Source: Verrucomicrobiota bacterium
Lineage (GTDB): Bacteria; Verrucomicrobiota; Kiritimatiellia; CAJWTS01
NCBI GenBank assembly: GCA_027623315.1
Contig: JAQBYD010000009.1
Coordinates: 1 to 64,000, forward strand
DNA: 64,000 nt
Direction: 5' to 3'
Part shown: piece after piece, positions 24,623 through 62,485 of the stretch
How the letters are laid out: the number at the start of each line of letters is the position of its first letter
Position numbering within the stretch: position 1 is the stretch's first letter
The notes under the pieces: model-generated
What the model saw: the letters and a program-made list of their open reading frames with translations, nothing else
Told to the model about the DNA's origin: nothing
The model's database searches: none
Made by a program: the position numbers and the translations under genes

Positions 24623-24644
24623 CTAGAAAAACAGAGAGGTGCCT

Positions 24645-25235
24645 ATGAACCCGCACGCACACACCCATAAGCATAAACACGCGAATAGACGAGGATTTAC
24701 CCTGATCGAGATCCTCGCAGTTTTATTCATTATTGCGATTATGGCTGCAGCGATCTTTGCGCTGGTGCCCTTCACCAAGAAAGCCGTTGAGCGACAGCGC
24801 TGCCGCAAAGAGGTCGAGATCATCCGCATGGCCATCGAGGAGTATCACTCCACCTTCGGCGTGTATCCCCCGGCGATTGGCACGAAATACGAACATCACG
24901 ATAACGATCCGTTAATTACGCCCGACGACTATCACTACAAATCCGGCCTGGTCTGGCATCTGAATGTAGGACCTCGCAAGGAGAATTGGGCTCGCTACAA
25001 CGAGCAGATCCCGTACTCAGGCGGCAGTGCGTCGTATGACGAGTTGAAGGCTCCGGATGATTTCTCTCCGCAGATCAATCTCTTGTGGACGAATAAGGTT
25101 GTGGAGATAAAAGATCCGTGGTTTCAGCCGTACGAATATGAAGTCGGACCGGATTTCCAGTCCTATCGCCTGTGGTCCAAGGGTCCGCCGGGTGACCCGG
25201 ATGGCACAATCGGGTACAAGGATTTCGTGCAGTAG
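24645..25235 (+). CDS. GspG-like pseudopilin
   Basis: NRRGFTLIEILAVLFIIAIMAAAIFALVPFTKKAVERQR. Confidence 0.82.
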   Translation: MNPHAHTHKHKHANRRGFTLIEILAVLFIIAIMAAAIFALVPFTKKAVERQRCRKEVEIIRMAIEEYHSTFGVYPPAIGTKYEHHDNDPLITPDDYHYKSGLVWHLNVGPRKENWARYNEQIPYSGGSASYDELKAPDDFSPQINLLWTNKVVEIKDPWFQPYEYEVGPDFQSYRLWSKGPPGDPDGTIGYKDFVQ

Positions 25236-25260
25236 ACTTGCAGATGGAGTAGACGACGAC

Positions 25261-25794
25261 ATGATCAACACACGATTCAGACCCTGGTTCCGCCGACAAC
25301 GCGCCTTCACGCTGGTGGAGATGCTGGTGGTGGCGGCGCTGATCCTGATTCTCGGCGCGCTGCTGTTCCCCGCCATCCAGAGAGCGATCCAGCAGGCACG
25401 CAGGCATAGGGCGCGCACGGAGGTCAACCAGATCGCGACGGCGTGGCGTCAATTCAAGAACGAGTACGCCACTTTTCCGTCCGGAATCACGGAGATGGAT
25501 GCGAACGCTCTAAGTATTCTGCGTGGCGTCAATGATGTCGGGGGACAGTATAAGCGCAAGCTGCTTCTCCTCGAGAACGCACCCGGCAGCGGCGAGTGGT
25601 TCGATCCGTGGGGACTGCACTACTTCGTGGAACTCGATCTGGACTATGACAATGTGATCGACCTCGATAAGGGGGACGGAAAGACCAACACCGTCTACGG
25701 CGGCGTGGCGGTTTGGTCGAAAGGGCGTGATAACGGTCTCGACGACACCACCGACGATCCCGCCGATGATATCAATAACTGGAAACAGAAATAG
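25261..25794 (+). CDS. GspG-like pseudopilin
   Basis: RQRAFTLVEMLVVAALILILGALLFPAIQRAIQQARRHRARTEVNQIATAWRQFKNEYATFP. Confidence 0.8.
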   Translation: MINTRFRPWFRRQRAFTLVEMLVVAALILILGALLFPAIQRAIQQARRHRARTEVNQIATAWRQFKNEYATFPSGITEMDANALSILRGVNDVGGQYKRKLLLLENAPGSGEWFDPWGLHYFVELDLDYDNVIDLDKGDGKTNTVYGGVAVWSKGRDNGLDDTTDDPADDINNWKQK

Positions 25795-25835
25795 TGCCAT
25801 TGACGAACCATGAATTGCGACAGCACGGTTCGGGC

Positions 25836-25917
25836 AAAGTAGAAGCGGCGTCCCGCCGCTTTGCCTTGCGGGACACCTGCGCTGTCGCAGAAAGCGGCGT
25901 CCCGCCGCTTCTACTTT
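25836..25917. repeat. Cruciform-capable repeat within the pseudopilin operon
   Basis: aaagtagaagcggcg ... cgccgcttctacttt; each half also contains gcggcg-tcc-cgccgc. Confidence 0.7.
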
Positions 25918-25946
25918 TGAAAGAGCCCCTGAGCCGAAGGCGCACC

Positions 25947-26357
25947 ATGGCCTTCACCCTGATCGAGTTGCTGGTGGTCATCGCGATAATCCTGCTTCTC
26001 ATCGGATTGGCTGTTCCCGCGGTGAACAGCATCAAGGAGGAGGCCAAGCGCAAGCATACCCGTGCGCTCGTGGCTACAGTGGCCACGACTTTTGAGACGT
26101 ATTATTCGGAATACGATCGCTGGCCGGGCCAGGCGGTCTCTGGAATTTTCTCGTTCTCAGATCCGATGTCCGGTCGCCAATGGACCAACAGTTCGCAGGT
26201 CTCCTGGGTCATGGGAAATCTGCTTCCAACCGCCCAGAAGAACTACAAGAAGGAAGCATACTGGGTAGACGACCGTCTGGTTACGGACGCATTCGGGGAC
26301 GTGATTCACATCACCATTACGAACGACAGGGTCTATGTCACATCCGTCAATCTATAA
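25947..26357 (+). CDS. GspG-like pseudopilin
   Basis: MAFTLIELLVVIAIILLLIGLAVPAVNSIKEEAKRKHTRALVATVATTFETYYSEYDRWP. An upstream GTG (25794) is possible but would read through the repeat. Confidence 0.72.
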   Translation: MAFTLIELLVVIAIILLLIGLAVPAVNSIKEEAKRKHTRALVATVATTFETYYSEYDRWPGQAVSGIFSFSDPMSGRQWTNSSQVSWVMGNLLPTAQKNYKKEAYWVDDRLVTDAFGDVIHITITNDRVYVTSVNL

Positions 26358-26361
26358 CATT

Positions 26362-26964
26362 ATGCGCAGCACCGATAGAAAAGATGGGCAGTCTTCGTCG
26401 CTGTCTTATTCGTTGTCTAATGTCGAAAGCAGACATCGACGAAGACTCCGACTAAGGCAACGACGAGGACTGGATTCTGACTGTCGCGGCTATACGCTTC
26501 TCGAGTTGATGGCGGTCATGCTGATCGTGGCGATCATGATGGGCACCGGGTTTGCCGGGTACTATTCCGCCAAGCAGGGCGTGGCGATGCGTTCCGCCGT
26601 GAACACCGTGCGCAACGGGATCGCTTCCGCGCGCGGCACGGCGATTGCGCGCTCGCGAACGATTACCGTCGTGATTACCAGTAACGCCGTGCACTCGTAC
26701 TATACGACCGGGTCCCTGACGACCAATGTCGAGCAGACCGACGGCAACTATCTTCCGCCGCACGTGTATCTCTATGAGCCGGGCGAGGGACCTCCCTCGG
26801 ATTCCCCGCTTGCGAACAAGAAGTTCCGCGTCTACCCGGATGGCAGTGCCGGAGCGTTCTCCAATGTCGTGGTTGATGTGCGTGAGATTGGGGGACCCAA
26901 GGGCTATCGATTGACCCTGCACGGACTGACCGGTAGCGTCCGGACAGAGGACATCACGTTGTGA
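26362..26964 (+). CDS. GspH-like pseudopilin with unusually long N-terminal leader
   Basis: GYTLLELMAVMLIVAIMMGTGFAGYYSAKQGVAMRSAVNTVRNGIASARGTAIARSRTITVVI. Confidence 0.72.
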   Translation: MRSTDRKDGQSSSLSYSLSNVESRHRRRLRLRQRRGLDSDCRGYTLLELMAVMLIVAIMMGTGFAGYYSAKQGVAMRSAVNTVRNGIASARGTAIARSRTITVVITSNAVHSYYTTGSLTTNVEQTDGNYLPPHVYLYEPGEGPPSDSPLANKKFRVYPDGSAGAFSNVVVDVREIGGPKGYRLTLHGLTGSVRTEDITL

Positions 26965-27464
26965 GCGCGCGGAGAAAAATGCAAGCGGGCACAGATGGAT
27001 TCAGCCTGATCGAGATTGCTCTTGCGATGCTGGTCTTCTCGCTCGGCGTTGTCGTGGTGTTCGGACTCTTTCCATTTGCCATGGAGGCGGGCCGGCAGTC
27101 GGTGCGCGATACGCACGTGTCGATGTTCGGTCGCTCCGTGATGGAGGGCTTGCGCGCCAATGCGGCGAAGATCGACAACTGGAACACGTGGAGTAACTTC
27201 GGGAGCTTTAGCTCGACAGTGTTCACGCCTGCCATCTACCCGAACGTTTCAGCGACCGGTTCGGGTGTAACCAATCTGGTTCCCTATCCGACGCAAGATC
27301 CGACGGCTGAAACCTGGGTGCGCTATACGCTCGTCGTATCGAATGACGTGAGCCGGCCCGATGTCCGATCCTTTCTGCTCAATGCCGCGGGCGGGCGGGC
27401 TGGAGAATTTCGTGGATACCGCTTCTATACCGAGGTCTACTATCAAGCCGATCCCACTCCATAA
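26961..27464 (+). CDS. Minor pseudopilin (PilV/GspI-like)
   Basis: GFSLIEIALAMLVFSLGVVVVFGLFPFAMEAGRQS. Confidence 0.75.
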   Translation: MSARRKMQAGTDGFSLIEIALAMLVFSLGVVVVFGLFPFAMEAGRQSVRDTHVSMFGRSVMEGLRANAAKIDNWNTWSNFGSFSSTVFTPAIYPNVSATGSGVTNLVPYPTQDPTAETWVRYTLVVSNDVSRPDVRSFLLNAAGGRAGEFRGYRFYTEVYYQADPTP

Positions 27465-27495
27465 GCCGACCGCGGCTACCCGCCGTGCGTGGCGT

Positions 27496-28128
27496 GTGCG
27501 CGACGTTGCGCGTTCCGGCTTTACGCTGCTCGAGTTGCTCGTCGCGATGCTGGTGATGGGGTTGATCGTTCTGGCCAGTGCGATGATGTACCAATCCGGC
27601 GCCAATGCGTACCACATCAGCATGCAGCGCGCCGAGGTCACGCTCGTCGGACGCTCGCTTGTGCAGATGATCGCAGCAGAGCTAAGTCACGCCGTCGCGG
27701 ATGACCCGCCTGCCGGAGTGCCTGACCAGGTGTTTGAGTTTCGCCTGCTGGCGGGTGATCGAATAGAGTTCGCCAAGTTCGCGCCCTCCGATACCGAGGA
27801 ACTGAATGCCATGCGCGGAATTATGAGGGTGGCCTATCAGAAATCGGGCGGTGCAGTCGGCACCGTGCAGCGTCGCGTGCGGTATTACTCGAGTGAAGAT
27901 TACGGCCTCGAAGAGGATTCGGGTTGGATCGATCTGGCGGACCGAATCTTGACTCTCGAGTTCCGGCCGGATGGGAACTGGACGAATACGGCAACCACAA
28001 ACCTGCCGCTGCACGTGGATGTTTTCGTCGATGCGTTGACGGAGGAGGACGCGCTGCGGAACAATACGCAGAATGCGCGGACCTATCATCGTCGCGTCTA
28101 TATGGCCAACCGCAAGAGGTACCTGTAA
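27496..28128 (+). CDS. Minor pseudopilin (PilW/GspJ-like)
   Basis: SGFTLLELLVAMLVMGLIVLASAMMYQSGANAYHISMQRAEV. Start uncertain; ORF opens at 27361. Confidence 0.7.
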   Translation: MRDVARSGFTLLELLVAMLVMGLIVLASAMMYQSGANAYHISMQRAEVTLVGRSLVQMIAAELSHAVADDPPAGVPDQVFEFRLLAGDRIEFAKFAPSDTEELNAMRGIMRVAYQKSGGAVGTVQRRVRYYSSEDYGLEEDSGWIDLADRILTLEFRPDGNWTNTATTNLPLHVDVFVDALTEEDALRNNTQNARTYHRRVYMANRKRYL

Positions 28129-28134
28129 GGGATC

Positions 28135-30408
28135 ATGAACCGGCAGCACCATAAAGGGAAACGCGGAATCGCCCTGATTCTAATGCTTGGGATCCTCGCG
28201 CTCATGGCGATGCTGGCCCTGACGTTTTCGGGCACGATGCGCATGGAGCGCGCTGCGTCCGGCAATTTCCGTGAAGCGGCGCAGGCGCGGGAGATCCTGT
28301 ACGCGTCGCTGACACGTGCGCTGGAGGCGCTGGACTCCGAGATCGGGACCAACGGGTATCCGGATTGGATTGACGATGTCTACGTCTCGGGCGGCGGCGG
28401 GTCGATTTCGCTCCTGAGCGGCGAGGCCACGAATTTCGTGCCCGGCGCTCTCTGGGGCGCGGCAACGAGCAACAGCCCCGGCTGGATTGACATCGACGAG
28501 GGCCGCGGTGCCTTCATGATCTTGAATTGCTCTGGATTGCTGGACGCAAATTATGTGGGTGGGAGCACGAACCGAACCTACGGGACGAATCTAAACGAAA
28601 TCGTCCTCGCCGGTCTGTCTGAGATGCAGGATGAAAGTGGGTTCTTCGACGACCGAACAAATGGACACTATCGATACGAGACGCTGCGCGAATTGAGCAA
28701 CTTGCAGAGCGCGAACCTGTCCGATTGGCCACAGAGCCTTTTTCACTACTCGCGTGCGCTGCTTGGCTACCTGGACCAGGCCGGTTCGCCGCAGACGAAT
28801 GTGGTCAATATCAGCGGATCCGCCTCGAATCTCGTGGCGGACCGGACGCGTATCGTCGCCGCCTTCACCGGGGCGGGGCTGAATGGGGCGGAAGCGGCTT
28901 TTGCGTTCGAAAATCTTATCGATTACGTGGACGCCGACTCCGTGCCGCGCGATATCGGATCGGGTACGACGGAAGCCGTGCCGATGATCAACGAGGTGCA
29001 GGTAATCCCGATTATCTTACCCACGCAGGCGTTTCCAGCGAGCGTGCTGCCGCCGGGCTACGGCGTGGGGGTTGAGGAAGCCTCGACATTGCTCCTCGTG
29101 CGCGTGGAGTTTTTCTATCCTTTCGTCAAGGCATCCCCCGACAACTTCACGCTGCACTATAGGATCGAGGTCGATCCGGGCGGCAGCACTCCCGCCGAAA
29201 TCGCCGAAGCGACGACGTTTATTGCTGCCGGCGGGGAGGGGACGGCTGACGTGGGATACAACAGTGAGGTCAAGCGGTACTACACCGTAGATATCATCAC
29301 GACGAACTTCAGCACCTCGACGGTTGTGCGGTCGACCTCCGAATCGATCGTGTACGATGTCGATATCTGGCTGGCGGTCTCCAATGCGACTGACCTGGTG
29401 GATGCGATGCCTTTCCCTGTCACGGCTGCGCCAATGGAGATCGAGACGACGGCGTTGAATATCCCAACGTCGATCACAGAGTTCGTGAGCAGCGTACCGA
29501 TCGTCTCGACGAACGGCACCGAGGCGGGAGATCCCCGTTTCAACTGGGATCCTGCGTTGGCGGCGGTTCAATGGTTTCCATACAGCCTGTGGGGCCCGGG
29601 ATACCAGGGCAGCATTTTTGACGGTCCGGCAAGCCTGCCGGTGGCCAACAAGATTACGCAGGAGATCCTCACGAATTCGATCACAGACGGTCACACCGAC
29701 ATGTATGTTGCCAACGAGCCGCTCCGCCAGCCAGGTGAGTTGAGCTATCTGCTTCGCGGCGCGAATATATCGGACCGTGCGTGGCGCACGATACGCCTGT
29801 TCGAGCTGTTCGGATCGGGCAGTAACTATCTTCCGCCTGATCGCATTCTCGATCGTTTTACAACCGTGTCGAATACGGTTGTCTTCCGTGGTCGCGTGAA
29901 CCCCAATACGCGCCAACGCGACGTGCTCGCGAGTTTGTTCTACGAGATGCCGCTCGATGAGTATCCTGGATTGGGAGACAATAGAATCTTACTGTTCTCC
30001 GATGCGCAGCGATTGGCGGATAGTTTTCTGTCGGCAAGAGGCAGCGATAGATTTCAGAATCTGTCGGAACTGGGGACGTTGAGCGACATCTTCACGGATC
30101 CCGCGCTGATGACGGCGACCCCTTTTGAGCGCGAGGCCTTCTTGCGTAACTCCTCGGAGCTTCTTTCGGTACGACAGAATCTCTTTACGATCCTGCTATC
30201 CGGGGAATCTGTTGTGCGGGCGCAGGACTCTCAGGTCTGGGTCGAGCGCGAGGCCGCAGCGCGTTACGGTGTGGCACCCGGGTGGTTTACCACCGTGGAG
30301 GCCGATCAACGCGCTGTCGCGATCGTCTGGCGTGATCCGTATCCCGACCCCAACCGGGGTAATCGCCACGGCTACCTGGTTCAAGAGCTCAAGCTTCTGA
30401 GCCGGTAG
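28135..30408 (+). CDS. Large GspK/PilX-like minor pseudopilin
   Basis: GIALILMLGILALMAMLALTFSGTMRMERAASGNFREAAQAREILYASLTRALEAL. Confidence 0.65.
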   Translation: MNRQHHKGKRGIALILMLGILALMAMLALTFSGTMRMERAASGNFREAAQAREILYASLTRALEALDSEIGTNGYPDWIDDVYVSGGGGSISLLSGEATNFVPGALWGAATSNSPGWIDIDEGRGAFMILNCSGLLDANYVGGSTNRTYGTNLNEIVLAGLSEMQDESGFFDDRTNGHYRYETLRELSNLQSANLSDWPQSLFHYSRALLGYLDQAGSPQTNVVNISGSASNLVADRTRIVAAFTGAGLNGAEAAFAFENLIDYVDADSVPRDIGSGTTEAVPMINEVQVIPIILPTQAFPASVLPPGYGVGVEEASTLLLVRVEFFYPFVKASPDNFTLHYRIEVDPGGSTPAEIAEATTFIAAGGEGTADVGYNSEVKRYYTVDIITTNFSTSTVVRSTSESIVYDVDIWLAVSNATDLVDAMPFPVTAAPMEIETTALNIPTSITEFVSSVPIVSTNGTEAGDPRFNWDPALAAVQWFPYSLWGPGYQGSIFDGPASLPVANKITQEILTNSITDGHTDMYVANEPLRQPGELSYLLRGANISDRAWRTIRLFELFGSGSNYLPPDRILDRFTTVSNTVVFRGRVNPNTRQRDVLASLFYEMPLDEYPGLGDNRILLFSDAQRLADSFLSARGSDRFQNLSELGTLSDIFTDPALMTATPFEREAFLRNSSELLSVRQNLFTILLSGESVVRAQDSQVWVEREAAARYGVAPGWFTTVEADQRAVAIVWRDPYPDPNRGNRHGYLVQELKLLSR

Positions 30409-51360: not shown

Positions 51361-51540
51361 TAACCCGGATATCCCACACTTTTCCTACTACGAACACGGA
51401 TAGCTCCGTCAGGCTTGATCGAAACAGGGCTTCGCCAATTCACAGTATGTCCATACAGTTTCATCGGCAAAGCCCTGTTTCGATCAAGCCCGACGGCTCT
51501 TCGCGCTCTCGCTACGAAAAAGTGTGAGATATCCGGGTTA
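51361..51540. mobile_element. MITE-like palindromic element, 180-bp copy
   Basis: Arms 51361-51436 and 51466-51540 are imperfect inverted repeats, ending taacccggatatc / gatatccgggtta; arm shared with 20439-20504. Confidence 0.75.
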
Positions 51541-51654
51541 AGTTTCTTTAAGACATAGCTTCGCCGTTTCGGTTAAAGGTTTTTAATGATAGCTTCATGT
51601 CTACTTAACGGTTGGGCGGCATGGTGCGGATCGAGAGTTTTAAGGAGATGTGGT

Positions 51655-52332
51655 ATGCGCGTCCTTGTTGTTGAAGATCATAGGCGAGTTGCAAATTTCA
51701 TCGTGAAGGGGCTTCGCGAGGAGTCCTATGCGGTCGACCTTGCCGATAACGGCCAGGACGGCTTCACGATGGCGAAGACGACCGAATACGATTGTGTCAT
51801 CCTGGACCTGATGTTGCCCGGCATGTCGGGCCTTGAGGTGCTCCGGCAACTTCGCGAGAAGGGCGTGCAGACTCCCGTCATCGTCTTGACCGCCAGGGAC
51901 GCGGTTGCGGACAAGATTGCGGGTCTCGATTCGGGTGCGGATGACTACCTGACGAAACCGTTCGCATTTGACGAACTGCTCGCGCGTATGCGTGCGTTGA
52001 TGCGTCGCCGAATGGCGGTCTTGGATGTCAAGTTGCAGATCGAGGATCTCTCGGTCGACATCGTGACGCGCGAGGTGCGTCGTGGGGACACTCTGATTGA
52101 TCTGACTCCCAAGGAGTTCGCTCTGCTGGAGTACCTGCTCCGAAACAAGGATCGAATTATGACCCGCACATCGATCATCGAGCATGTCTGGGACATGCAT
52201 TACGACTCCGAAACGAACGTGGTCGACGTGCTGATTCGGTACCTGAGGCGCAAGATTGACGATGACTTCTCCCCGAAGCTGATCCACACCGTTCGAGGAG
52301 TGGGGTACGTCCTGAAAGTGGCTGCGGGATGA
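51655..52332 (+). CDS. OmpR-family response regulator
   Basis: MRVLVVEDHRRVANFIVKGLREESYAVDLADNG; YLTKPFAFDELLARMRALMRR; C-terminal winged helix. Confidence 0.9.
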   Translation: MRVLVVEDHRRVANFIVKGLREESYAVDLADNGQDGFTMAKTTEYDCVILDLMLPGMSGLEVLRQLREKGVQTPVIVLTARDAVADKIAGLDSGADDYLTKPFAFDELLARMRALMRRRMAVLDVKLQIEDLSVDIVTREVRRGDTLIDLTPKEFALLEYLLRNKDRIMTRTSIIEHVWDMHYDSETNVVDVLIRYLRRKIDDDFSPKLIHTVRGVGYVLKVAAG

Positions 52333-53822
52333 AGTCCTTCTCCACGCGCGTGTCGCTGATCTTCTGCTCGTCGTTCGTGGCGCTCTCGTTTGCGCAGTTG
52401 GCCGCCGTGCTGGCGTTTTTCTATGTCGCTCTACTTCAGTCCGAAAAACGCGAACTCGACGAGTTGGCACATCGTATCGAAGCGGAGCTCCAGGGCCCCG
52501 GGGGGCATCACGGTCCGGGAGACAACATCGACGGCGTCGTATCCGCCATTAACGAGAAGATTGCATTTCTCTTCGATGAAGACGACCTGAACCTGGGATA
52601 CGCAATCTTCGGCAAAGACGGGAACAAGCGCTATGACTACTTCTCCCCGCACGCGCAGAATCCGTTCACGTCGGTCCGGCCCGGTTCCGGGCAGCTCTAT
52701 TTCCGCCGCTGGAGCGGCCACAACGCCTGTACGTTCTACCGGCGGCTGAGCGGACGCCGCTACGACCTGTTGGTTTCGTCCGCTCACCATTTCGAGTTGA
52801 TCGACACGATGTTGGCGGGACTTGCCGTGGTTCTGCCGGTCGGGATTCTGATCGCGATATTCCTGGGGCGGGCGCTGAGTCGGCGGGTTGTCGACCCTAT
52901 GAACAAGATTGCCGCCACGGCACGACGGGTCGAGCATGGCGATCTCGGTGCGCGAATCGAGAATCTTCCGACCGGTGACGAGGTGGAGTATGTCGTGAAC
53001 GTCCTCAACGCGACGCTGGAGAAGCTGCAAACTTCTTTTGAGCGCATCCAGCAGTTCAGTGCGGACGTCGCGCACGAGTTCAAGACGCCTCTCACGGCCA
53101 TGCGCGGTGATATGGAGGTCAGCCTTCGAAAGCCCCGGTCGGCCGAGGAATACCAGGCAACGCTGGCGCGTTGCATTGAGGAAATTGCGGACCTCAATCG
53201 GTTCATCGAGTCACTCCTGGTTCTGGCCACGCCGGATGAGGGGCGTGCCCGGCAGAGGTTCCGAACCGTGGATCTCGGGGAACTCCTCGGCGAAGTTCAA
53301 GAGCACCTTGAGGCCTTCGCCGAGACACAGAACGTTCGGTTAGAGACGACCGGCGATGGGGCCGCCACGGTGTTGGGAGACCGGGCACTCCTGCATCAAC
53401 TCCTCTATAACCTTGTGCACAATGCCATCAAGTTTTCCAGCCCGGGAGATATCGTGAAGGTGTCTTCCACGTGCCGGCAGGGCGACGTTCAGATCGAGGT
53501 CGTCGATTCGGGCTGCGGAATTCCAGAAGAGCATGTCGACAAGATATTCGACCGGCTTTACCAGGCGGATTCGAGCCGCAACGTCGGCCACGGGCTCGGC
53601 CTGGCGATAGTCAAGTGGATCGCCGAACTGCACCGCGGAGCGATCTCCGTTCAGAGCCTGCCCGGCGAGGGCAGTTCTTTCACGGTGCGGCTGCCGACGC
53701 AGTCTTCGGGCAAGCTGCTCGCCGTGGGTGCTTCCGGTTTCCCTGGGCGCGTGTCGTTCATGTCGCCTTGGTCTCCGCCTTCCTTTGGCCGTAGATGCGT
53801 GGCTGGGTCAGGTTGTCGATGA
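52329..53822 (+). CDS. Sensor histidine kinase (HAMP, HisKA, HATPase)
   Basis: FSADVAHEFKTPLTAMRGDMEVSL (H-box); LLYNLVHNAIKFSSPGD (N-box); VDSGCGIPEEHVDKIFDRLYQ. About the last 35 aa after LPTQSSG are antisense to rnf sequence. Confidence 0.88.
   Translation: MKSFSTRVSLIFCSSFVALSFAQLAAVLAFFYVALLQSEKRELDELAHRIEAELQGPGGHHGPGDNIDGVVSAINEKIAFLFDEDDLNLGYAIFGKDGNKRYDYFSPHAQNPFTSVRPGSGQLYFRRWSGHNACTFYRRLSGRRYDLLVSSAHHFELIDTMLAGLAVVLPVGILIAIFLGRALSRRVVDPMNKIAATARRVEHGDLGARIENLPTGDEVEYVVNVLNATLEKLQTSFERIQQFSADVAHEFKTPLTAMRGDMEVSLRKPRSAEEYQATLARCIEEIADLNRFIESLLVLATPDEGRARQRFRTVDLGELLGEVQEHLEAFAETQNVRLETTGDGAATVLGDRALLHQLLYNLVHNAIKFSSPGDIVKVSSTCRQGDVQIEVVDSGCGIPEEHVDKIFDRLYQADSSRNVGHGLGLAIVKWIAELHRGAISVQSLPGEGSSFTVRLPTQSSGKLLAVGASGFPGRVSFMSPWSPPSFGRRCVAGSGCR
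53711..53761 (-). pseudogene. Candidate 5' remnant of rnfG
   Basis: ATGA overlap of the rnfD stop with an ATG; reads MNDTRPGKPEAPTASSL, after which the sequence is the reverse complement of the kinase 3' end. Confidence 0.4.
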
Positions 53823-54810
53823 TCGGAGAGCAGGCGTTGCCGAGCAGGATGGCGTACATGACGCCCTCGGGGAGTCCGCCCTTGAGCCTTATGATAACCG
53901 TTACGGCGCCCATCAGGCCGCCATAGATCCAGACGCCGAGGGGCGTGACCGGCGATGCGACCATATCCGATGCCATGAAAATCGCGCCAAGCATCAGGCT
54001 TCCAGAGAACAGGATAAATACAGGCGAAGGATACGCTGATCGGTCCGACAGGTAGAAGATGCCTCCCACGATGAAGGCGCTCAGTAGCATCGCCGCCGGA
54101 ATTCGCCAGTTCATCATCCTTCGCGCCACCAGGTAGAGCCCGCAGACCAGGATCAGGAGCGCTGAAGTCTCTCCCACGGAACCGGCCGTGGTGCCGAAGA
54201 AGAGCGGGGCTGTCGCCGTGGTGATGTGGTCGAACTTCTGAAGGGAGAGAGGCGTGGCGCCCGTCCATCCATCGATCTGCAGCGAGGCCGTCCAGCCGGC
54301 AATCGACGCCGGTGCGGCGAACGGGAAGGTGAGTGACGACGGGATCATGCTCGAAAAGCGGCCCGGAGCCATGGACGGAGACCAGGTCGTTATCGCCACC
54401 GGAAAAGACGCCTGCAGAAATGCCCGCCCGACGAGCGCCGGATTGAAAACGTTATAGCCGATGCCTCCGAATACGGCCTTGCCCAGCGCGATGGCGATGA
54501 TTCCGCCGACAAACGCCATCCACAGCGGGAAGCCGGGCGGCAGCGTCAGACCGAGCAAGATGCCCGTAATCGTGGCGCTCCAATCGTTAACGGTCGTCTC
54601 GCCACCGGCCATGCGGCAGACGGCATGCTCGGTCAGCACGCAACTTGCCGTGCATGTCACCAGCAGCGCAATCGCACTGAGCCCAAATTGAAAGATGCCG
54701 AACGCGCAAATCGGGAACATCGCGTAGACGACGTTACGCATAATCGTCTCCACGCTCGACGCGTTGTGGATATGCGGCGAACTGCTTAGTTCCAGGATGT
54801 CGGCACTCAC
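53758..54810 (-). CDS. rnfD: Rnf complex subunit RnfD
   Basis: SSPHIHNASSVETIMRNVVYAMFPICAFGIFQFG; DGWTGATPLS (FMN-Thr context); GGLPEGVMYAILLGNACSPIIDNLTQPR. Confidence 0.9.
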   Translation of the reverse strand: MSADILELSSSPHIHNASSVETIMRNVVYAMFPICAFGIFQFGLSAIALLVTCTASCVLTEHAVCRMAGGETTVNDWSATITGILLGLTLPPGFPLWMAFVGGIIAIALGKAVFGGIGYNVFNPALVGRAFLQASFPVAITTWSPSMAPGRFSSMIPSSLTFPFAAPASIAGWTASLQIDGWTGATPLSLQKFDHITTATAPLFFGTTAGSVGETSALLILVCGLYLVARRMMNWRIPAAMLLSAFIVGGIFYLSDRSAYPSPVFILFSGSLMLGAIFMASDMVASPVTPLGVWIYGGLMGAVTVIIRLKGGLPEGVMYAILLGNACSPIIDNLTQPRIYGQRKAETKAT

Positions 54811-56153
54811 GAGGCGGCCATCCTTTCGCGGTTTCGCGCCTTGGCCATGCGGAACTGCTGAACCAGCGGAATATCGGAGGGGCAAACGAAACTGCAGCAT
54901 CCGCATTCGAAGCAGTCCTTGAGGTGGAACTTCTGATCCATGACCTCGTACGCGCCGGCCCGCGCCAGGATGCCGAGTCGGGAGGGGTTCAGATGCATCG
55001 GGCAGGCGTCCACGCACTCACCACACTTGATGCACGGAAAGGTCTTGCGGCCCCGTGTCGCCGCCTCCGCGTCCGTCAGCACCAGGACTCCGGTGATGCC
55101 TTTCGTGACGGGCAGGTCGAGGCAGGCAACGGCGGGTCCCATCATCGGCCCTCCTAGAATCACCTGTCGAGCGTCGCCTTCGAAACCAGCTTGCTCAAGC
55201 AGGAAGCGCAGCGGCGTGCCGAGAGCGGTGAGGTAGTTGCCCGGACGGGTTACGCCTGCTCCCGTAACCGTCACGACCCGCTCAATGAGTCCGCGGCGCT
55301 GGGGTAGAAGCTCACCGATCTGGGCCAGCGTAGCCACGTTGAAAACTCCCAGGCCAACGTCCGCCGGGAGTCCTCCAGAGGGGATCTCGCGGTTGAGCAG
55401 CGCCTTGGCGAGCATCTTCTCGGCCCCTTGTGGATACTTGGTTGGAAGCGCATGAATCGAGATGTTGTTGCTTCGTCCCTGGAGGGCGCTTTCGAAGGCC
55501 GCCACGGCATCCGGCTTGTTATCCTCGACGCCGATCATGATTCGTTCGGCCTTCATGGCCTTACACACGATCATGGCTCCAATCACGATTTCGTTGATCT
55601 GCTCGAGCATGACACGATGATCCGTCGTCAGGTAGGGTTCACACTCACAACCGTTTACAATGATCGTGTCCACGGTTTTTCCCTCGGGCACGGCCAACTT
55701 CACGTGCGTCGGAAATGCGGCGCCGCCGAGTCCAACGACCCCCGTTGCCTGCACGCGGAGCGTCAGTTCCTCGGGGGACATCGACTCGAGGTCCTGCGGT
55801 GCACCATAAAGAATCTCCTGTGCGGCACCCGGGTATAGTTTGATGTAGATGCCGAGGGTCACGCCGCCCTTTGGGGTCGGCACGGGCGCGATTCGCTCAA
55901 CCATGCCCGTGGCCGGCGAGTGCATTGGCACCGATACAAATCCGTCCGGTTGGGCGATCGGCTCACCGCGCACGACCTCCTGGCCCTCGCGCACCGTCGG
56001 CGTCGCCGGCGCGCCGGTATGTTGCGAGAGCGGAATGATCATTCTCGGCGCGAACGGCAGGCGACGGATGGCACAACCCGCCGTTCGGTCCTTGCGTTGC
56101 GGCGGATGGATCCCGTGCGAGAAAGAGTGCTTATGGAACCGTTGTGGCAGCAT
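54807..56153 (-). CDS. rnfC: Rnf complex subunit RnfC
   Basis: GIHPPQRKDRTAGCAIRRLP; GLGGAAFPTHVKL; CIKCGECVDACPMHLNPSRL; CFECGCCSFVCPSDIPLVQ. Confidence 0.9.
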   Translation of the reverse strand: MLPQRFHKHSFSHGIHPPQRKDRTAGCAIRRLPFAPRMIIPLSQHTGAPATPTVREGQEVVRGEPIAQPDGFVSVPMHSPATGMVERIAPVPTPKGGVTLGIYIKLYPGAAQEILYGAPQDLESMSPEELTLRVQATGVVGLGGAAFPTHVKLAVPEGKTVDTIIVNGCECEPYLTTDHRVMLEQINEIVIGAMIVCKAMKAERIMIGVEDNKPDAVAAFESALQGRSNNISIHALPTKYPQGAEKMLAKALLNREIPSGGLPADVGLGVFNVATLAQIGELLPQRRGLIERVVTVTGAGVTRPGNYLTALGTPLRFLLEQAGFEGDARQVILGGPMMGPAVACLDLPVTKGITGVLVLTDAEAATRGRKTFPCIKCGECVDACPMHLNPSRLGILARAGAYEVMDQKFHLKDCFECGCCSFVCPSDIPLVQQFRMAKARNRERMAAS

Positions 56154-56157
56154 CGTA

Positions 56158-59100
56158 TCAGCTGAACTTCTTGGCACGCTTGATCAACTTATCGACTCCC
56201 TTTTCGCTGGGATCCGCAGGGTAGCCAGGGTGAATGATTCCGCCCGTGCATTTCTCCGCGGCGCGGACGAGGTCCTTGTACGGGCCGCCCTTCGCGTCTT
56301 TGATATAGGCCAGCTTCTTCTCGTTGTAGGCGAATATCTTCGGGTTGATGTTGATGCATTCGTCGCAGGACGTGCACTCGCTGGTGTCGATCCACGGAGC
56401 CACGTATTCACCATCGCCGTTGGCGGGGGCCGGTGCCGCGCCGGCACCGCCTCCGGGAGCGGGGGTGGGAGATGGAGCCACGGCGGGGGCGGCGGCCAGC
56501 GAAGCCGCGAGGTCGGCCCCGCCGGCGCCGAGGCTGAGTTGAACCAGCCCGGCCGCGATCTTCTTTGCCATTTCGGTCCGCACCTGCGCGGCAATCGCGT
56601 CCGGGTCCACGACGTTGCCGACACCGGCAATGCCCTTGAGCATCGCCCAGAAGTCTCGCCGGTCTTCGCATGCCACGACGACGGGAGCGGCCGGGATCAC
56701 CCGTATCAGCTGCTGTTTCTTGTCCAGCGCCCAAATGTACGGGAAGAGGTCCTCCCTCTCTTGCGGGTCCATCTCGAGGTATTCCGCCAGGGGCACCATG
56801 TTCTCGTTCCACGTGTCGCGCGGGGCCACGCGGAACTGCTTCCGGAAGCGGCCTTCGGTGACGGCGAAGTCGGCAAACGTCATCGGCAGATCCATCGTGC
56901 CGGCGTTACCGTCTTCCTCTTTGTATTGGAGTGCGTAGCTTGGCCACGGATCGTCGAGCGCGGGGTTTCCTTCGAGATCGAAGCACTCCGCAGCGGTGAC
57001 CCCATGGTCCGGGTTATATCGGAAGAGCGGGAACGCCCGCGACTCTACGGCCAGTTTGCTCTGCTTGACCGCGGCGTCATCCGCGATGCCGTGTTCCGGC
57101 ATGCAGGGGCTGTAGATATTGAAGAGCGCCGGGCGCCGGGCGTTGATGCCCTCGATGTAGCCCTCGATCAGGTGCGTCACATTCGAGATCGACCCTTGCA
57201 TCACGAACGTCGTGCGGTGCCCCATCGCGATGAGCCCGATCTCCTTGCGGATCTCTTCCTTGCCCTTGAACGCCTTGCCGTATTGGGCCATGTCGGAGAC
57301 CTGACCGGTGAAACCCGAGGTGCAGGCCTGGCCGCCCGTATTCGAATACACCTGCGTGTCGAGGATCAACGCCTTGATGGGCTTGCCGGACATCATCATG
57401 CGCGACAGATTCTGGAACCCGATGTCGAACATGGCACCGTCACCACCGACGGATACGACGGGCGGGCAGAGGTGGAACTCATCATCGCTGAAAGAACGCC
57501 AGTTGAAGTACGTGAAGAACTCTTCGTGTTCACCTTCGCCGACCGTGCCGTCCAGTTCAATCTCGGCCATGCGGATGGCTTTAAAGCCGTCGGCCATCTT
57601 GGACATGTGCCCCTCGAAGATCCCCATCGCCATGGAGGGCGAGTCCTGGAAAAGATGGTTCGCCCACGGGAAGGGGTAGGGATTGAACGGGTACGTGGAA
57701 CCCCAGACCGACGTGCATCCAGTGGCGTTGATGATGCCCATGCTGGCTCGACCGTTCCCGGTCGTGCCCTGCGTGTATTGCCATCGCAGGTGACGCAGCT
57801 TGGCGAGCAACTGGTTCACGTGGTGCAGCCAGTCCGGGTCGACCGGCGAGGTGGCATCATCGCTCGCCAACGAGGCGGACAGGTCGGACAGCGTGAGATC
57901 CCGGTCCTTCGCGCTCGTGATCACGCTCTCTATCGCCTGGGGATCGCTGAGATCCATGCTTTCGGCGAGGCGGAGCCGGATATGTTTCTCCAGCCGTGCG
58001 ACCAGGTCGTCGAGCCGCTCAACCTGCGCCTTGACGCGCGGCTGCATCAACGCTTCAACCGTCGCGACGAAAAGCCGCATGGCGGTCTTTTCGCCACATC
58101 CCATGCATGCGCCGTCACCGCAGGACATCGAGAGGTGGTTGTTCTTGTCGAGCAGCAGGGTCTCCAATGCCCCGATGCGCTCATCGAGATCGTCGATCCG
58201 AATGTACTCGCTGGATGTGGTCGGCAGACTCATCCAGAAGTCCCAGTCCCTACGGAGGTGCTCGACGCTCTCCTGCGTCTGGGGAACCGGCCTGAGCGCA
58301 TCGTCGTTGCAGACTTCGACGCACTCCATGCAGCCCTTGCAGGTATAGGGGTTCACCGTGATCGAGAGCAGGCCCCCGCTTCCAGCAGCGTCCTTCTCTT
58401 TATTGGCGTAGTACGGCTTGGTGACTGAGAACTTGAAGCCGTTGATGCTCTCGCGGAACCATTCGAGTTCCTGTCTCAGCTCCGTCTTCTCATCCGCCTC
58501 CGCCGCACACTGCGTCAACGTATTGGCGACCGCCGTCGAGAGGAGTGCATCGATATCCGCGGCCCCCGGGCTCTCCGCCTCGCCGATCAGCGCCCGCAGG
58601 TTCTTCTCGACACTGCGCGTCGCCTTGCGCAGGTGCTTGACCGCGTGTCCGGACTTCTCGACTCTTGCGACGGCGGTGTCGAAGACCTCGCTCATGCTGT
58701 TGACCAGTCCGGGGATGGCACTGTCCGGGCAGGCCGCGTAGCATGCGCCGCAGGCGGTGCAGTTTTGCGGAATCCATTGCGGGTGATCAAAGCGGATCTG
58801 GGTCATATCCCGGTAAACACCCGTCGCGGCCGGAATGATACTCACGCCGATGAACGGGTCGGCCAGGTTGTCTCCACCCTTTCCGGAGATGTAGAAGTTC
58901 CCGGTCTGTTCCCAGAAGCGATGAATATCGGATGACGCATCCTCGCTGACCGGACGATCTCTGAGCATGATGGGTATGTCGGGCTCCTTGCGAAGCACCT
59001 CGGTCGTTTCCAGGAGCGAGGTGTCTGTGATCTCTGTGATCTCGTCGAAGCCGCGTCGTACCACGCGCAGGTTGTCTTCGACCACGCGTGCGCCCTTTCC

Positions 59101-61119
59101 CCCGAACTTGGCCTGAAGCTGATCGCGGATGGCCTTGAAGAGCGTTTCTTCGGTGAGCTTCGCGGTCTTCATCACGGGCGATGCCGCGAAGAACGCGCCC
59201 TGGAAGGCGATGCCCTGCATGCGGAATTGCAGTTCGGGATCGGTTGCTTCTTCGCGGGCGATCTTGAAGGCGTCGATGTAGTAGATGCGAACCGCGTTCT
59301 CGGCAATAATCTTGCGATACTTCAGAGGTATCGACGCCCACACCTCGGCGGGCGACTCGCGATCGCTTTGAATGATGAAAACGCCGCCCTTCTTCAGTCC
59401 GGCCACGGCGTTGGAGTGTTCGAAGACGTTCGGATCCGGAGATAGAACGACGTCGACAAAGAAGTACTCGCAGTTTATCCGGATTGGATCCGGCGCCGCG
59501 GAGAGGTAATAGGTCGTCGGCTGGCCCTTTTTCTCGGATCCGTATTTCGGATTCGCCTTGATGTGGAACCCGAGCAGATCGAAGAGCGTCATCGCGAGAT
59601 TCTTGCCGGTCGTAATGGCCCCCCATCCGCCAACCGAGTGCAGTCGCACGGTCACGCTATCGGATGGCATCAGGTTGGGGTTCTCACTCCCGTGTACGGC
59701 GAGGTCCTTGATGCCGGGGTAGCCGTCCAGGATCTTGCGCTGGTGAATCTCCTGCTTGGGCGTAAACGCTTCGTCCCGAACGAAGTCGATCGAAAGATAG
59801 AAGAAGCGGCGCTTCGGTCCGTCATCGACCATGTTCTCGACGGTGCCAACAATGCCTTCCGGTTGCAGATCACGGCTACCCATGCCGAAACAGCCCGAGT
59901 AGAGTGGGGGAGCGTCCGCGGCGCTCTTGTAGGTCGCGTGGTCGGGGTGGCGCGTGGGCTCAGCGCGGCCGGTCTGTCCGTTTTCGAGACACTTGCTGAT
60001 CGTGGCGCGGATCTCACGGATCAGGGGCAGATCTTCGGCCAACGGTTGGTCGGTGCGTTCGAGGACCGTGACGCCCTTGCGTCCGGCAAGGATCTCTCCG
60101 AGAAGATCGCCCGGGAACGGGCGGAACATGACGATGTCGACCACGCCAATCCGGATACCCCGCGTCTCGCGCAGATAGTCCGCGACCGCCTCGGCGGATG
60201 GGATCACGCTGCCCTGTCCGACGATCAGGTAGTCGGCATCATCGCATCGATACGTCTGAACCCGCTTGTAGTCTCGCCCGGTCAACGCGCCGAAAGCCTC
60301 CATGCACTGGTCGGTGATCTCGCGGATGTGATCGAAGAAATAGGGACGCTGCGCGGCCACGCTCTGCATGTAGGCGTCCTGGTTTTGAACCGAACCGGCC
60401 AGCATCGGATTGTCCACGTCCCACATCTGAGGAATGCGGCGGCGGGTCTCTCCGTAGATGATTCGCTGCGCCGGGGTCGGCGTGTCGATGATATCGTCCG
60501 GTCGCCCGAGGTACTGGGCGATCAACTCGCGTTCGGGGAGCTGCAGGGATTCGATCAGGTGCGTCGTCAGAAACCCGTCCTGCGCCACGATCCCGGGATT
60601 AAGGGCAAGTTCGGCGATTCTGTGCGCAATGATGTTCAGATCGCACACCGCCTGGGCGCTTTTGCCGAAGACCTGGAAGAAGCCGGTGTCGTCGACGGAG
60701 TGGTAGTCGTCGTGGCCGGCATGCACATTCAGCGACGACTTGGTGATGGCCCGGCACCCCACGTTGAGCACGTAGGTGAGGCGCTTGCCGACCGCGGCGT
60801 ACAGCGATTCGTGCATGTAGGCAATGCCCTGACCCGAGGAGAAGTTCGTGGCGCGCAGGCCGGTCATGGACAAGCCCGCGGTCACCGCGGCAGCGGCGTG
60901 TTCGCCTTCCGGTTCGATGAAGATCAGTGGCCGATCGGAGATGTTGATATGTCCCTTGGCCGTTTCCTCGGCCCAGTATTCCCCCATTTGGGTGGAGGGT
61001 GTAATCGGGTATGCTCCCGCGGCGTCGGTTGATTCGCGCTCGCACATGATGACGGCGGTGTTACCGTCCATGGCCTGTCGCACTCCGGGGTATTTCGGCT
61101 CCTCTACTTTCACTTTCAT
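56158..61119 (-). CDS. Pyruvate:ferredoxin (flavodoxin) oxidoreductase, extended, with C-terminal ferredoxin domain
   Basis: Domain I AGAYPITPSTQMGEYW; Fe-S CTACGACYAACP and CKGCMECVEVCN; TPP GGDGAMFDIGFQNLSRMMMSGKPIKALILDTQVYSNTGGQ; Ala/Pro linker then WIDTSECTSCDECININPKIFAYNEKKLAYIKDAKGGPYKDLVRAAEKCTGGIIHPGYP. Confidence 0.92.
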   Translation of the reverse strand: MKVKVEEPKYPGVRQAMDGNTAVIMCERESTDAAGAYPITPSTQMGEYWAEETAKGHINISDRPLIFIEPEGEHAAAAVTAGLSMTGLRATNFSSGQGIAYMHESLYAAVGKRLTYVLNVGCRAITKSSLNVHAGHDDYHSVDDTGFFQVFGKSAQAVCDLNIIAHRIAELALNPGIVAQDGFLTTHLIESLQLPERELIAQYLGRPDDIIDTPTPAQRIIYGETRRRIPQMWDVDNPMLAGSVQNQDAYMQSVAAQRPYFFDHIREITDQCMEAFGALTGRDYKRVQTYRCDDADYLIVGQGSVIPSAEAVADYLRETRGIRIGVVDIVMFRPFPGDLLGEILAGRKGVTVLERTDQPLAEDLPLIREIRATISKCLENGQTGRAEPTRHPDHATYKSAADAPPLYSGCFGMGSRDLQPEGIVGTVENMVDDGPKRRFFYLSIDFVRDEAFTPKQEIHQRKILDGYPGIKDLAVHGSENPNLMPSDSVTVRLHSVGGWGAITTGKNLAMTLFDLLGFHIKANPKYGSEKKGQPTTYYLSAAPDPIRINCEYFFVDVVLSPDPNVFEHSNAVAGLKKGGVFIIQSDRESPAEVWASIPLKYRKIIAENAVRIYYIDAFKIAREEATDPELQFRMQGIAFQGAFFAASPVMKTAKLTEETLFKAIRDQLQAKFGGKGARVVEDNLRVVRRGFDEITEITDTSLLETTEVLRKEPDIPIMLRDRPVSEDASSDIHRFWEQTGNFYISGKGGDNLADPFIGVSIIPAATGVYRDMTQIRFDHPQWIPQNCTACGACYAACPDSAIPGLVNSMSEVFDTAVARVEKSGHAVKHLRKATRSVEKNLRALIGEAESPGAADIDALLSTAVANTLTQCAAEADEKTELRQELEWFRESINGFKFSVTKPYYANKEKDAAGSGGLLSITVNPYTCKGCMECVEVCNDDALRPVPQTQESVEHLRRDWDFWMSLPTTSSEYIRIDDLDERIGALETLLLDKNNHLSMSCGDGACMGCGEKTAMRLFVATVEALMQPRVKAQVERLDDLVARLEKHIRLRLAESMDLSDPQAIESVITSAKDRDLTLSDLSASLASDDATSPVDPDWLHHVNQLLAKLRHLRWQYTQGTTGNGRASMGIINATGCTSVWGSTYPFNPYPFPWANHLFQDSPSMAMGIFEGHMSKMADGFKAIRMAEIELDGTVGEGEHEEFFTYFNWRSFSDDEFHLCPPVVSVGGDGAMFDIGFQNLSRMMMSGKPIKALILDTQVYSNTGGQACTSGFTGQVSDMAQYGKAFKGKEEIRKEIGLIAMGHRTTFVMQGSISNVTHLIEGYIEGINARRPALFNIYSPCMPEHGIADDAAVKQSKLAVESRAFPLFRYNPDHGVTAAECFDLEGNPALDDPWPSYALQYKEEDGNAGTMDLPMTFADFAVTEGRFRKQFRVAPRDTWNENMVPLAEYLEMDPQEREDLFPYIWALDKKQQLIRVIPAAPVVVACEDRRDFWAMLKGIAGVGNVVDPDAIAAQVRTEMAKKIAAGLVQLSLGAGGADLAASLAAAPAVAPSPTPAPGGGAGAAPAPANGDGEYVAPWIDTSECTSCDECININPKIFAYNEKKLAYIKDAKGGPYKDLVRAAEKCTGGIIHPGYPADPSEKGVDKLIKRAKKFS

Positions 61120-61173: not shown

Positions 61174-62076
61174 TCACACGGCTGCTGCTTCGGCGCCGAC
61201 CGGCAGCGGCGCCTTTCGAATGATCTTCTTGGCGGCGGCGCCGCGAATGGCGTCGCCATGGTCGGCGAGAAGGATGATCGCGCCGGTCGGGCAGCGTTCG
61301 ATCGGCGCGCGCAATTTGCCGGGGCGTCGGCTGTAGTCGATACGCGCCAGGTTGTTGATCATCTCGATCGTGCCGGGTGCGTCTGCCGCGCAGCGGCCGC
61401 ACGCGGTACAGGCAACTGCGCAGACCGCTTCGGCGAGATCACCCTCGGCTTCGCTCTTGCATGCGACCCAGAGCCGCTGGCTGACCGGCAGCAGGGAAAA
61501 GAGGTCCTTGGGGCACTCTTCGACGCATGCGTTGCAGGCCGTGCATCGATCTGGATTCACGACGGGTAGCCCGTGTAAGTCCATGTGAATCGCGCCGAAG
61601 TCACACACCGTCATACAGTCGCCGAAACCAAGGCATCCCCATGAGCACGCCTTGGGGCCGCCCGCGACCATGGCGGCGGCACGGCAGGTGGCAAGACCTG
61701 CGTAACTGGCCTGGTTACGCGCGACATGGCTGCCGCCGGCACAGGCGAGGCGGGCGACGCGTTTCTCCTCGGCACCGGCGGCGACACCGAGGAACCGCGC
61801 AATGGCCTCGATCATGTCGGGCGAGTTGACCGTGCATTTGGCGGGCGAAATCTTGCCGGCGACGGCGAGCTCAGCAAAGGCACGGCAACCGGGGGTGCCG
61901 CATGCGCCGCAGTTGCTGCTCGGGAGCATTTCCTCCACATCGTCGATGCGCGGGTCCTCGTACACATAGAGATACCGGTTGGCCACGGCCAATACCGTGG
62001 CGAGTCCCGCTCCGAGGACGACCATCAACAAGGCAACAATTAACGCTGTCGGCATCGGCAGTATGACTCCCTTCAT
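61174..62076 (-). CDS. rnfB: RnfB-like ferredoxin subunit
   Basis: N-terminal TM; EEMLPSSNCGACGTPGCRAFAELAVAG; CSWGCLGFGDCMTVCDFGAIHMD; CTACNACVEECP. Confidence 0.85.
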   Translation of the reverse strand: MKGVILPMPTALIVALLMVVLGAGLATVLAVANRYLYVYEDPRIDDVEEMLPSSNCGACGTPGCRAFAELAVAGKISPAKCTVNSPDMIEAIARFLGVAAGAEEKRVARLACAGGSHVARNQASYAGLATCRAAAMVAGGPKACSWGCLGFGDCMTVCDFGAIHMDLHGLPVVNPDRCTACNACVEECPKDLFSLLPVSQRLWVACKSEAEGDLAEAVCAVACTACGRCAADAPGTIEMINNLARIDYSRRPGKLRAPIERCPTGAIILLADHGDAIRGAAAKKIIRKAPLPVGAEAAAV

Positions 62077-62485
62077 CTGTGCCGTGAGCATTCAAAAATT
62101 CGTGATCCATGACTGCTGGATACTCGCAACCCTACATATGCACACGACGTGTAAACGTTTGATTAGGAATGCGTCACCGTAGGATGAAATGGATGTCCTA
62201 CGGCCTGGTCCCAGGCCTGCCCGCAATGTTTTTCACTTTGGTGCCAGGGCAAACGCTTGTCATAAAGAATTGAACTTTCAGGTCGGTCCCGCCCCCTCCT
62301 CGTGCTCGTGCTCGGCGCGAAACGACACAGGGAGAATGGCGTGAGTTTTGGGTCACGACGGTCGTATGCCTCTATCGCCTTGCCCGCGATATCGGAGGTC
62401 CTCCGCCGCCCGAAGAAATTCTATCGCGCTATCGCGCTCCGAGTACGAGTAGGAGCACGAGGACGAGTACGCTTGGATCTTGTGT

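Follow-up and report, generated by a model that had tools for sequence, protein, structure and literature searches.

A PFOR-like protein with a predicted leashed ferredoxin in Rnf operons, and its apparently shortened operon in a Verrucomicrobiota genome

Ferredoxin is usually seen as a diffusible carrier common to all low-potential enzymes; PFOR sends electrons through its own clusters to ferredoxin, and RnfB takes electrons from ferredoxin. In the stretch of Verrucomicrobiota DNA analysed here (the window, 64,000 nt of contig JAQBYD010000009.1), an oversized PFOR-like gene lies among rnf genes and appears to end in a ferredoxin of its own. A sequence-only reading had taken this tail for a swinging carrier that hands electrons to the adjacent Rnf and bypasses free ferredoxin. 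The question is whether such a tail is a genuine part of the protein and which partner it would serve.

Architecture of the PFOR-like protein

The frame at 56158-61119 on the minus strand is unbroken and encodes 1653 aa. The Pfam domains follow in the order POR_N, PFOR_II, POR gamma, two 4Fe-4S stretches, TPP_enzyme_C and Fer4_13, with the alpha, gamma, delta-like and beta (TPP) domains all on one chain. This is the domain order of the homomeric PFORs of Moorella thermoacetica (6cin) and Desulfovibrio africanus (1b0p/7plm), with which the protein also shares the TPP motif and, for substrate and cofactor, the YPITPS, Glu and Arg residues. Its three internal ligand sets (12 cysteines) align with those of ordinary PFORs and predict three [4Fe-4S] clusters; these sets and the TPP and substrate motifs are all intact. 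The phmmer comparison with 6cin gave an E value of 1.5e-84, while the identity to ordinary PFORs in alignments was only 25-27%, and the protein is about 450 aa longer than the homomeric enzymes, with two helical inserts and the tethered ferredoxin. The score against the NCBI pyruv_ox_red equivalog TIGR02176 was 401.7 bits, below the cut-off of 911.35. PFOR-like is therefore the safe name, and another 2-oxoacid is a possible substrate, although we infer pyruvate from the sequence. In addition, C1266 (window about 57322-57324) adjoins the TPP motif (SNTGGQ-A/S-C-TS) and is invariant in 85 of 85 relatives; ordinary PFORs have Ser at this position, as does a paralogue encoded in the same genome.

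The two extra segments and the linker described by the sequence-only reading were all found. Insert 1 (residues about 809-892, 58444..58695, minus strand) consists of four helices and separates the two internal 4Fe-4S motifs, and the C797-C927 spacing that contains it is 129 residues compared to 45 in four ordinary PFORs from relatives. Insert 2 (residues about 1009-1116, 57772..58095, minus strand) lies between the proximal-cluster cysteines, where the spacing C1008-C1135, from GDGACMGCGEK up to the ATGC cysteine, is 126 residues compared to 24 in the four ordinary PFORs. Both inserts were helical in the AlphaFold model built with 49 aligned relatives. The best structural matches of the larger model, a monomer with domain I left out and with a domain placement that is not to be trusted, were the Moorella and Desulfovibrio PFORs, in a loose superposition (rmsd about 10 A, TM about 0.4).

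The same genome encodes a paralogue of 1578 aa (G000:C39; L099:8464-13197, minus strand), which adjoins the pyruvate dehydrogenase genes aceE/aceF, not Rnf. It is 36-38% identical to the window protein and has all the internal cluster cysteines and both inserts, with spacings of 121 and 130 residues, but no ferredoxin tail. Other genomes of the phylum encode proteins 65-69% identical to this paralogue, and a genome of the same family (G001) holds a 478-aa piece of the paralogue only, beside aceE. Since the paralogue without ferredoxin has both inserts, these mark a broader PFOR subfamily, in which the ferredoxin goes with the Rnf-linked branch. The inserts are real, but they do not belong to the ferredoxin/Rnf design and are not specific to the Rnf arrangement, and a role for them as Rnf-docking modules is unsupported.

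The Ala/Pro/Gly linker (APAVAP...PANG, residues 1544-1568) was placed at 56416..56490 on the minus strand, close to the 56407-56515 proposed earlier; its pLDDT is below 50 and it is predicted to be disordered. It leads to a putative single-[4Fe-4S] ferredoxin domain (residues about 1574-1640, 56200..56400, minus strand) with a Fer4_13 match of E = 1.9e-7 and the ligands C1582, C1585, C1588 and C1624, a CX2CX2C motif plus a distal Cys. In the model of the C-terminal fragment the pLDDT of this domain was about 95-98, and the top solved match of the fragment was D. africanus ferredoxin I (PDB 1fxr), at 0.8 A over 57 columns. The tail is predicted to share the fold, the single cluster and the ligand pattern of ferredoxin I, and differs from it in being covalently joined to PFOR and in the residue after the fourth Cys, which is Thr, Ala or Ser in most members instead of the usual Pro.

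Spread of the fusion and its operon setting

The fusion was sought across 84,980 species, each represented by a single genome; 280 stretches encode relatives, and the best 80 were used. All 16 cluster cysteines, 12 internal and 4 in the tail, are invariant in 85 of 85 long members. The mean conservation was 0.77 in the ferredoxin, 0.54-0.62 in the inserts and 0.38 in the linker region (residues 1505-1570), the pattern expected if a functional domain hangs on a free tether. Because they are conserved in 85 relatives, the inserts, linker and ferredoxin are not due to chance, and a frameshift or assembly join at the ferredoxin was ruled out by the same fusion in these relatives. With four invariant cysteines, a predicted ferredoxin I fold and a predicted disordered linker, a leashed ferredoxin is well supported for this PFOR family, on sequence and model, and the earlier description of an oversized PFOR with a tethered ferredoxin holds. 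The tail domain has one copy in the genome of the window, and among 388 genomes of the phylum it was seen only within the PFOR fusion protein.

The phylogenetic distribution, proposed earlier as a check, extends by record label over about ten phyla: Acidobacteriota, Bacteroidota, Pseudomonadota, Myxococcota, Hydrogenedentota, Calditrichota, Verrucomicrobiota, Planctomycetota, Binatota and KSB1, of which single labels may be wrong, many carriers being MAGs. Cultivated carriers include Cecembia rubra, Algoriphagus kandeliae, Polaribacter sp. Hel1_85 and Methylomicrobium sp. wino1, and we take the carrier genera Algoriphagus, Polaribacter, Marivirga, Hyunsoonleella and Methylomicrobium to be aerobic. 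Within the class of the window, a further ten genomes carry the ortholog, in some cases as contig-end fragments. In a quick tree the nearest neighbour of the window protein was an acidobacterial sequence (73% identity), and the own-class orthologs formed a separate clade; support for the branch of the window protein was 85-88, below the 95 mark. This position suggests horizontal transfer.

The gene neighbourhoods were determined by tblastn, with rnfC scored within 600 nt of PFOR and the downstream genes in the 64 named loci with at least 7 kb downstream. The rnfC gene directly followed PFOR in 73 of the 74 named loci with enough DNA. Moreover, rnfD, rnfE and rnfA were present in 62 of the 64 loci, rnfG in 61 and rnfB in 60, and across the family as a whole all six Rnf subunits are encoded with PFOR. 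Compared with Rnf operons of the order rnfBCDGEA, those of the relatives have PFOR between rnfB and rnfC or before rnfC, and add a ferredoxin-NADP-reductase-like gene (FNR-like, PetH/BoxA-type), which follows rnfA in 59 of 64 loci; the recurring orders are rnfB-PFOR-rnfCDGEA-FNR and PFOR-rnfCDGEA-FNR-rnfB. The korA and korB genes come next after the operon in several Bacteroidota (Cyclobacteriaceae, Marivirga, Fulvivirga). Two loci are exceptions: a Halobeggiatoa locus of 22 kb (L027) has PFOR and no Rnf genes, and a Myxococcales locus (L053), which also contains unreadable bases, has a shortened rnfC with nothing after it. Some loci (L035, L060, L071) keep Rnf and have no FNR-like gene near the ortholog. 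With nearly every relative carrying the gene within an Rnf operon, the sequences strongly support an Rnf link of the leashed-ferredoxin PFOR at the level of the family.

The FNR-like gene may serve as an NADP+ outlet. It is also weakly NqrF-like in the Rnf operons of relatives (e.g., L044:18436-19290). According to a 2025 review, NQR arose from an rnf operon that gained a reductase of the FNR family (PMC12174285), and a link between the FNR-like gene of the PFOR-Rnf operons and the origin of NQR is possible.

The apparently shortened Rnf operon of this genome

In the window, rnfB (61174..62091, minus strand; the start may be 62055) matches RnfB-type families and an FeS domain and lies 54 nt upstream of PFOR. 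On the other side, rnfC (54807..56153, minus strand) starts 4 nt past the PFOR stop and scored 491.6 bits against TIGR01945, and rnfD (53758..54810, minus strand) has a GTG start that overlaps the rnfC stop and scored 292 bits against TIGR01946, both above the cut-offs; in the alignment rnfD is full-length at the C-terminus. Nearly all relatives examined have a four-base overlap between the rnfD stop and the rnfG start, and the window keeps the same ATGA overlap. Its rnfG-like start, which reads MNDTRPGKPEAPTAS..., comprises the first codons only and then runs into the antisense of a histidine kinase gene, and we place the remnant and the junction with foreign sequence approximately at 53697..53761 (minus strand). 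The kinase profile match stops at residue 456 (nt 53696) and the frame continues to 53822, within rnfD. This heavy-metal-type sensor kinase (52329-53822, plus strand) is thus open for about 40 codons beyond its normal end, into the rnfD antisense, which marks the junction. When the kinase side of the junction was used as a DNA query, the matches in relatives were all short and showed no synteny.

A PF02508 search for rnfA and rnfE across the 95%-complete assembly (129 contigs) found, elsewhere, only the NQR operon. A PF04205 search for rnfG found the NQR operon and one FMN-binding protein on contig C17, where tblastn gave no RnfG match. The genome thus encodes RnfB, RnfC and RnfD and a truncated RnfG, with no RnfA or RnfE found outside the NQR operon. 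Loss of rnfG, rnfE and rnfA as a trait of the class was ruled out, as seven class relatives (G056, G047, G042, G030, G018, G052 and G008) retain the genes. The absence here is due to a true deletion or to a false join made during assembly, and at 95% completeness in 129 contigs the two look the same.

In Rnf cryo-EM work a direct transfer from RnfB to RnfC, over more than 30 A, was judged unlikely, with electrons passing via A/E, G and D (PMC11889175). With no intact A, E or G in the assembly, this route is missing here. Provided that the assembly is correct, rnfD is the last gene of the operon, these genes do not suffice for the canonical pump, and the PFOR either uses other acceptors or is itself a remnant. 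A kor-type cluster for a 2-oxoacid oxidoreductase, together with a ferredoxin-like protein and an FAD protein, lies beyond the window, a few kb upstream (G000:C124, about 65.6-68.6 kb; L097). Elsewhere in the window, a repeat of about 43 bp at 51500-51543 has at least 13 more copies in the same genome (93-98% identity), and a gene run at 24639-30408 (plus strand) encodes starts that resemble type IV prepilins or pseudopilins (FTLIE/FSLIE motifs).

Proposed electron route and competing explanations

We favour, with a probability of about 0.62, a homomeric PFOR whose leashed single-cluster ferredoxin, a type reduced by PFOR in Desulfovibrio, feeds the RnfB subunit of Rnf. Pyruvate would be oxidised at the TPP site, and the electrons would move through the three internal [4Fe-4S] clusters and on to the leashed ferredoxin, which would then swing to RnfB. 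In a complete Rnf they would continue via A/E, G, D and C to NAD+, and Na+ or H+ would be moved out. Alternatively, Rnf could run in reverse and pyruvate would be made; the direction may be oxidative or, with pyruvate dehydrogenase also in the organism, reductive. We infer both the hand-over and its direction from sequence. The complex of D. africanus PFOR with ferredoxin I is weak and transient (PMC10052474), and a leash therefore has an obvious use, as it would raise the local concentration. The swinging carrier of the sequence-only reading is thus partly supported: well as regards the leashed ferredoxin (cysteines, fold and linker), strongly as regards the Rnf context of the family, and with an incomplete partner in this genome, which has a truncated rnfG and no rnfE or rnfA in the operon.

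The confinement of the tail domain to the fusion protein favours this leashed-ferredoxin reading, which is weakened because the FNR-like protein of the operon could be the real partner. The ferredoxin would then chiefly serve this flavoprotein, leading from pyruvate to NADPH, and the neighbouring Rnf would be expressed alongside it to keep NADH and low-potential electrons in balance. The regular presence of the gene after rnfA agrees with this, but PFOR adjoins rnfC or rnfB, not the FNR-like gene, and three loci keep Rnf without it nearby, and we consider such a role unlikely. We regard as quite improbable that the tail is an extra cluster relay, with soluble ferredoxin still the carrier to Rnf and other enzymes. 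That would be ordinary PFOR chemistry, and two-step relays exist in enzymes related to PFOR; however, a long disordered linker is hard to square with a fixed relay, and a dedicated gene order suggests that the partner is dedicated too. The PFOR of D. africanus has a protective C-terminal domain, and there are aerobes among the carriers of the fusion; nevertheless, an oxygen-protection domain in place of an electron carrier is very improbable here, given the four invariant cluster cysteines, the ferredoxin I fold and the disordered linker.

The leashed-ferredoxin reading is also weakened by the Halobeggiatoa locus without Rnf genes and by the incomplete Rnf of this genome. That the cluster in this genome is a decaying or transferred remnant, with the PFOR frame intact and the Rnf part lacking rnfG, rnfE and rnfA, is a serious possibility, at somewhat less than even odds. 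The truncated rnfG start, the lack of rnfA and rnfE elsewhere, the kinase frame fused across the junction and the grouping of the window protein with Acidobacteriota, not its own class (support 85-88), all fit a remnant. On the other hand, PFOR, rnfB, rnfC and rnfD are all intact, unlike the outcome of a long decay, and an assembly join gives the same pattern, with 5% of the genome missing.

No description of a PFOR-ferredoxin fusion or of PFOR inside Rnf operons was found in the open-licence literature searched, and a prior mention is possible in subscription papers; a term search of the 2025 Rnf/NQR review (PMC12174285) likewise showed neither. We tentatively propose, as a rather doubtful extension, that the PFOR with leashed ferredoxin is the substrate-input subunit of a widespread Rnf variant in many aerobic bacteria, a pyruvate-to-NAD+ ion pump or, in reverse, a gradient-driven pyruvate synthase, and that the truncated form here is a non-pumping PFOR-RnfBCD version. 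If the leashed-ferredoxin reading is true, the fusion of ferredoxin to PFOR in the Rnf operons of about ten phyla would tie a single substrate to a single ion pump. The fusion would also raise a testable question, namely the role of PFOR and Rnf in aerobic Bacteroidota and Gammaproteobacteria, and the cultivated carriers make the proposed PFOR-Rnf wiring directly testable.
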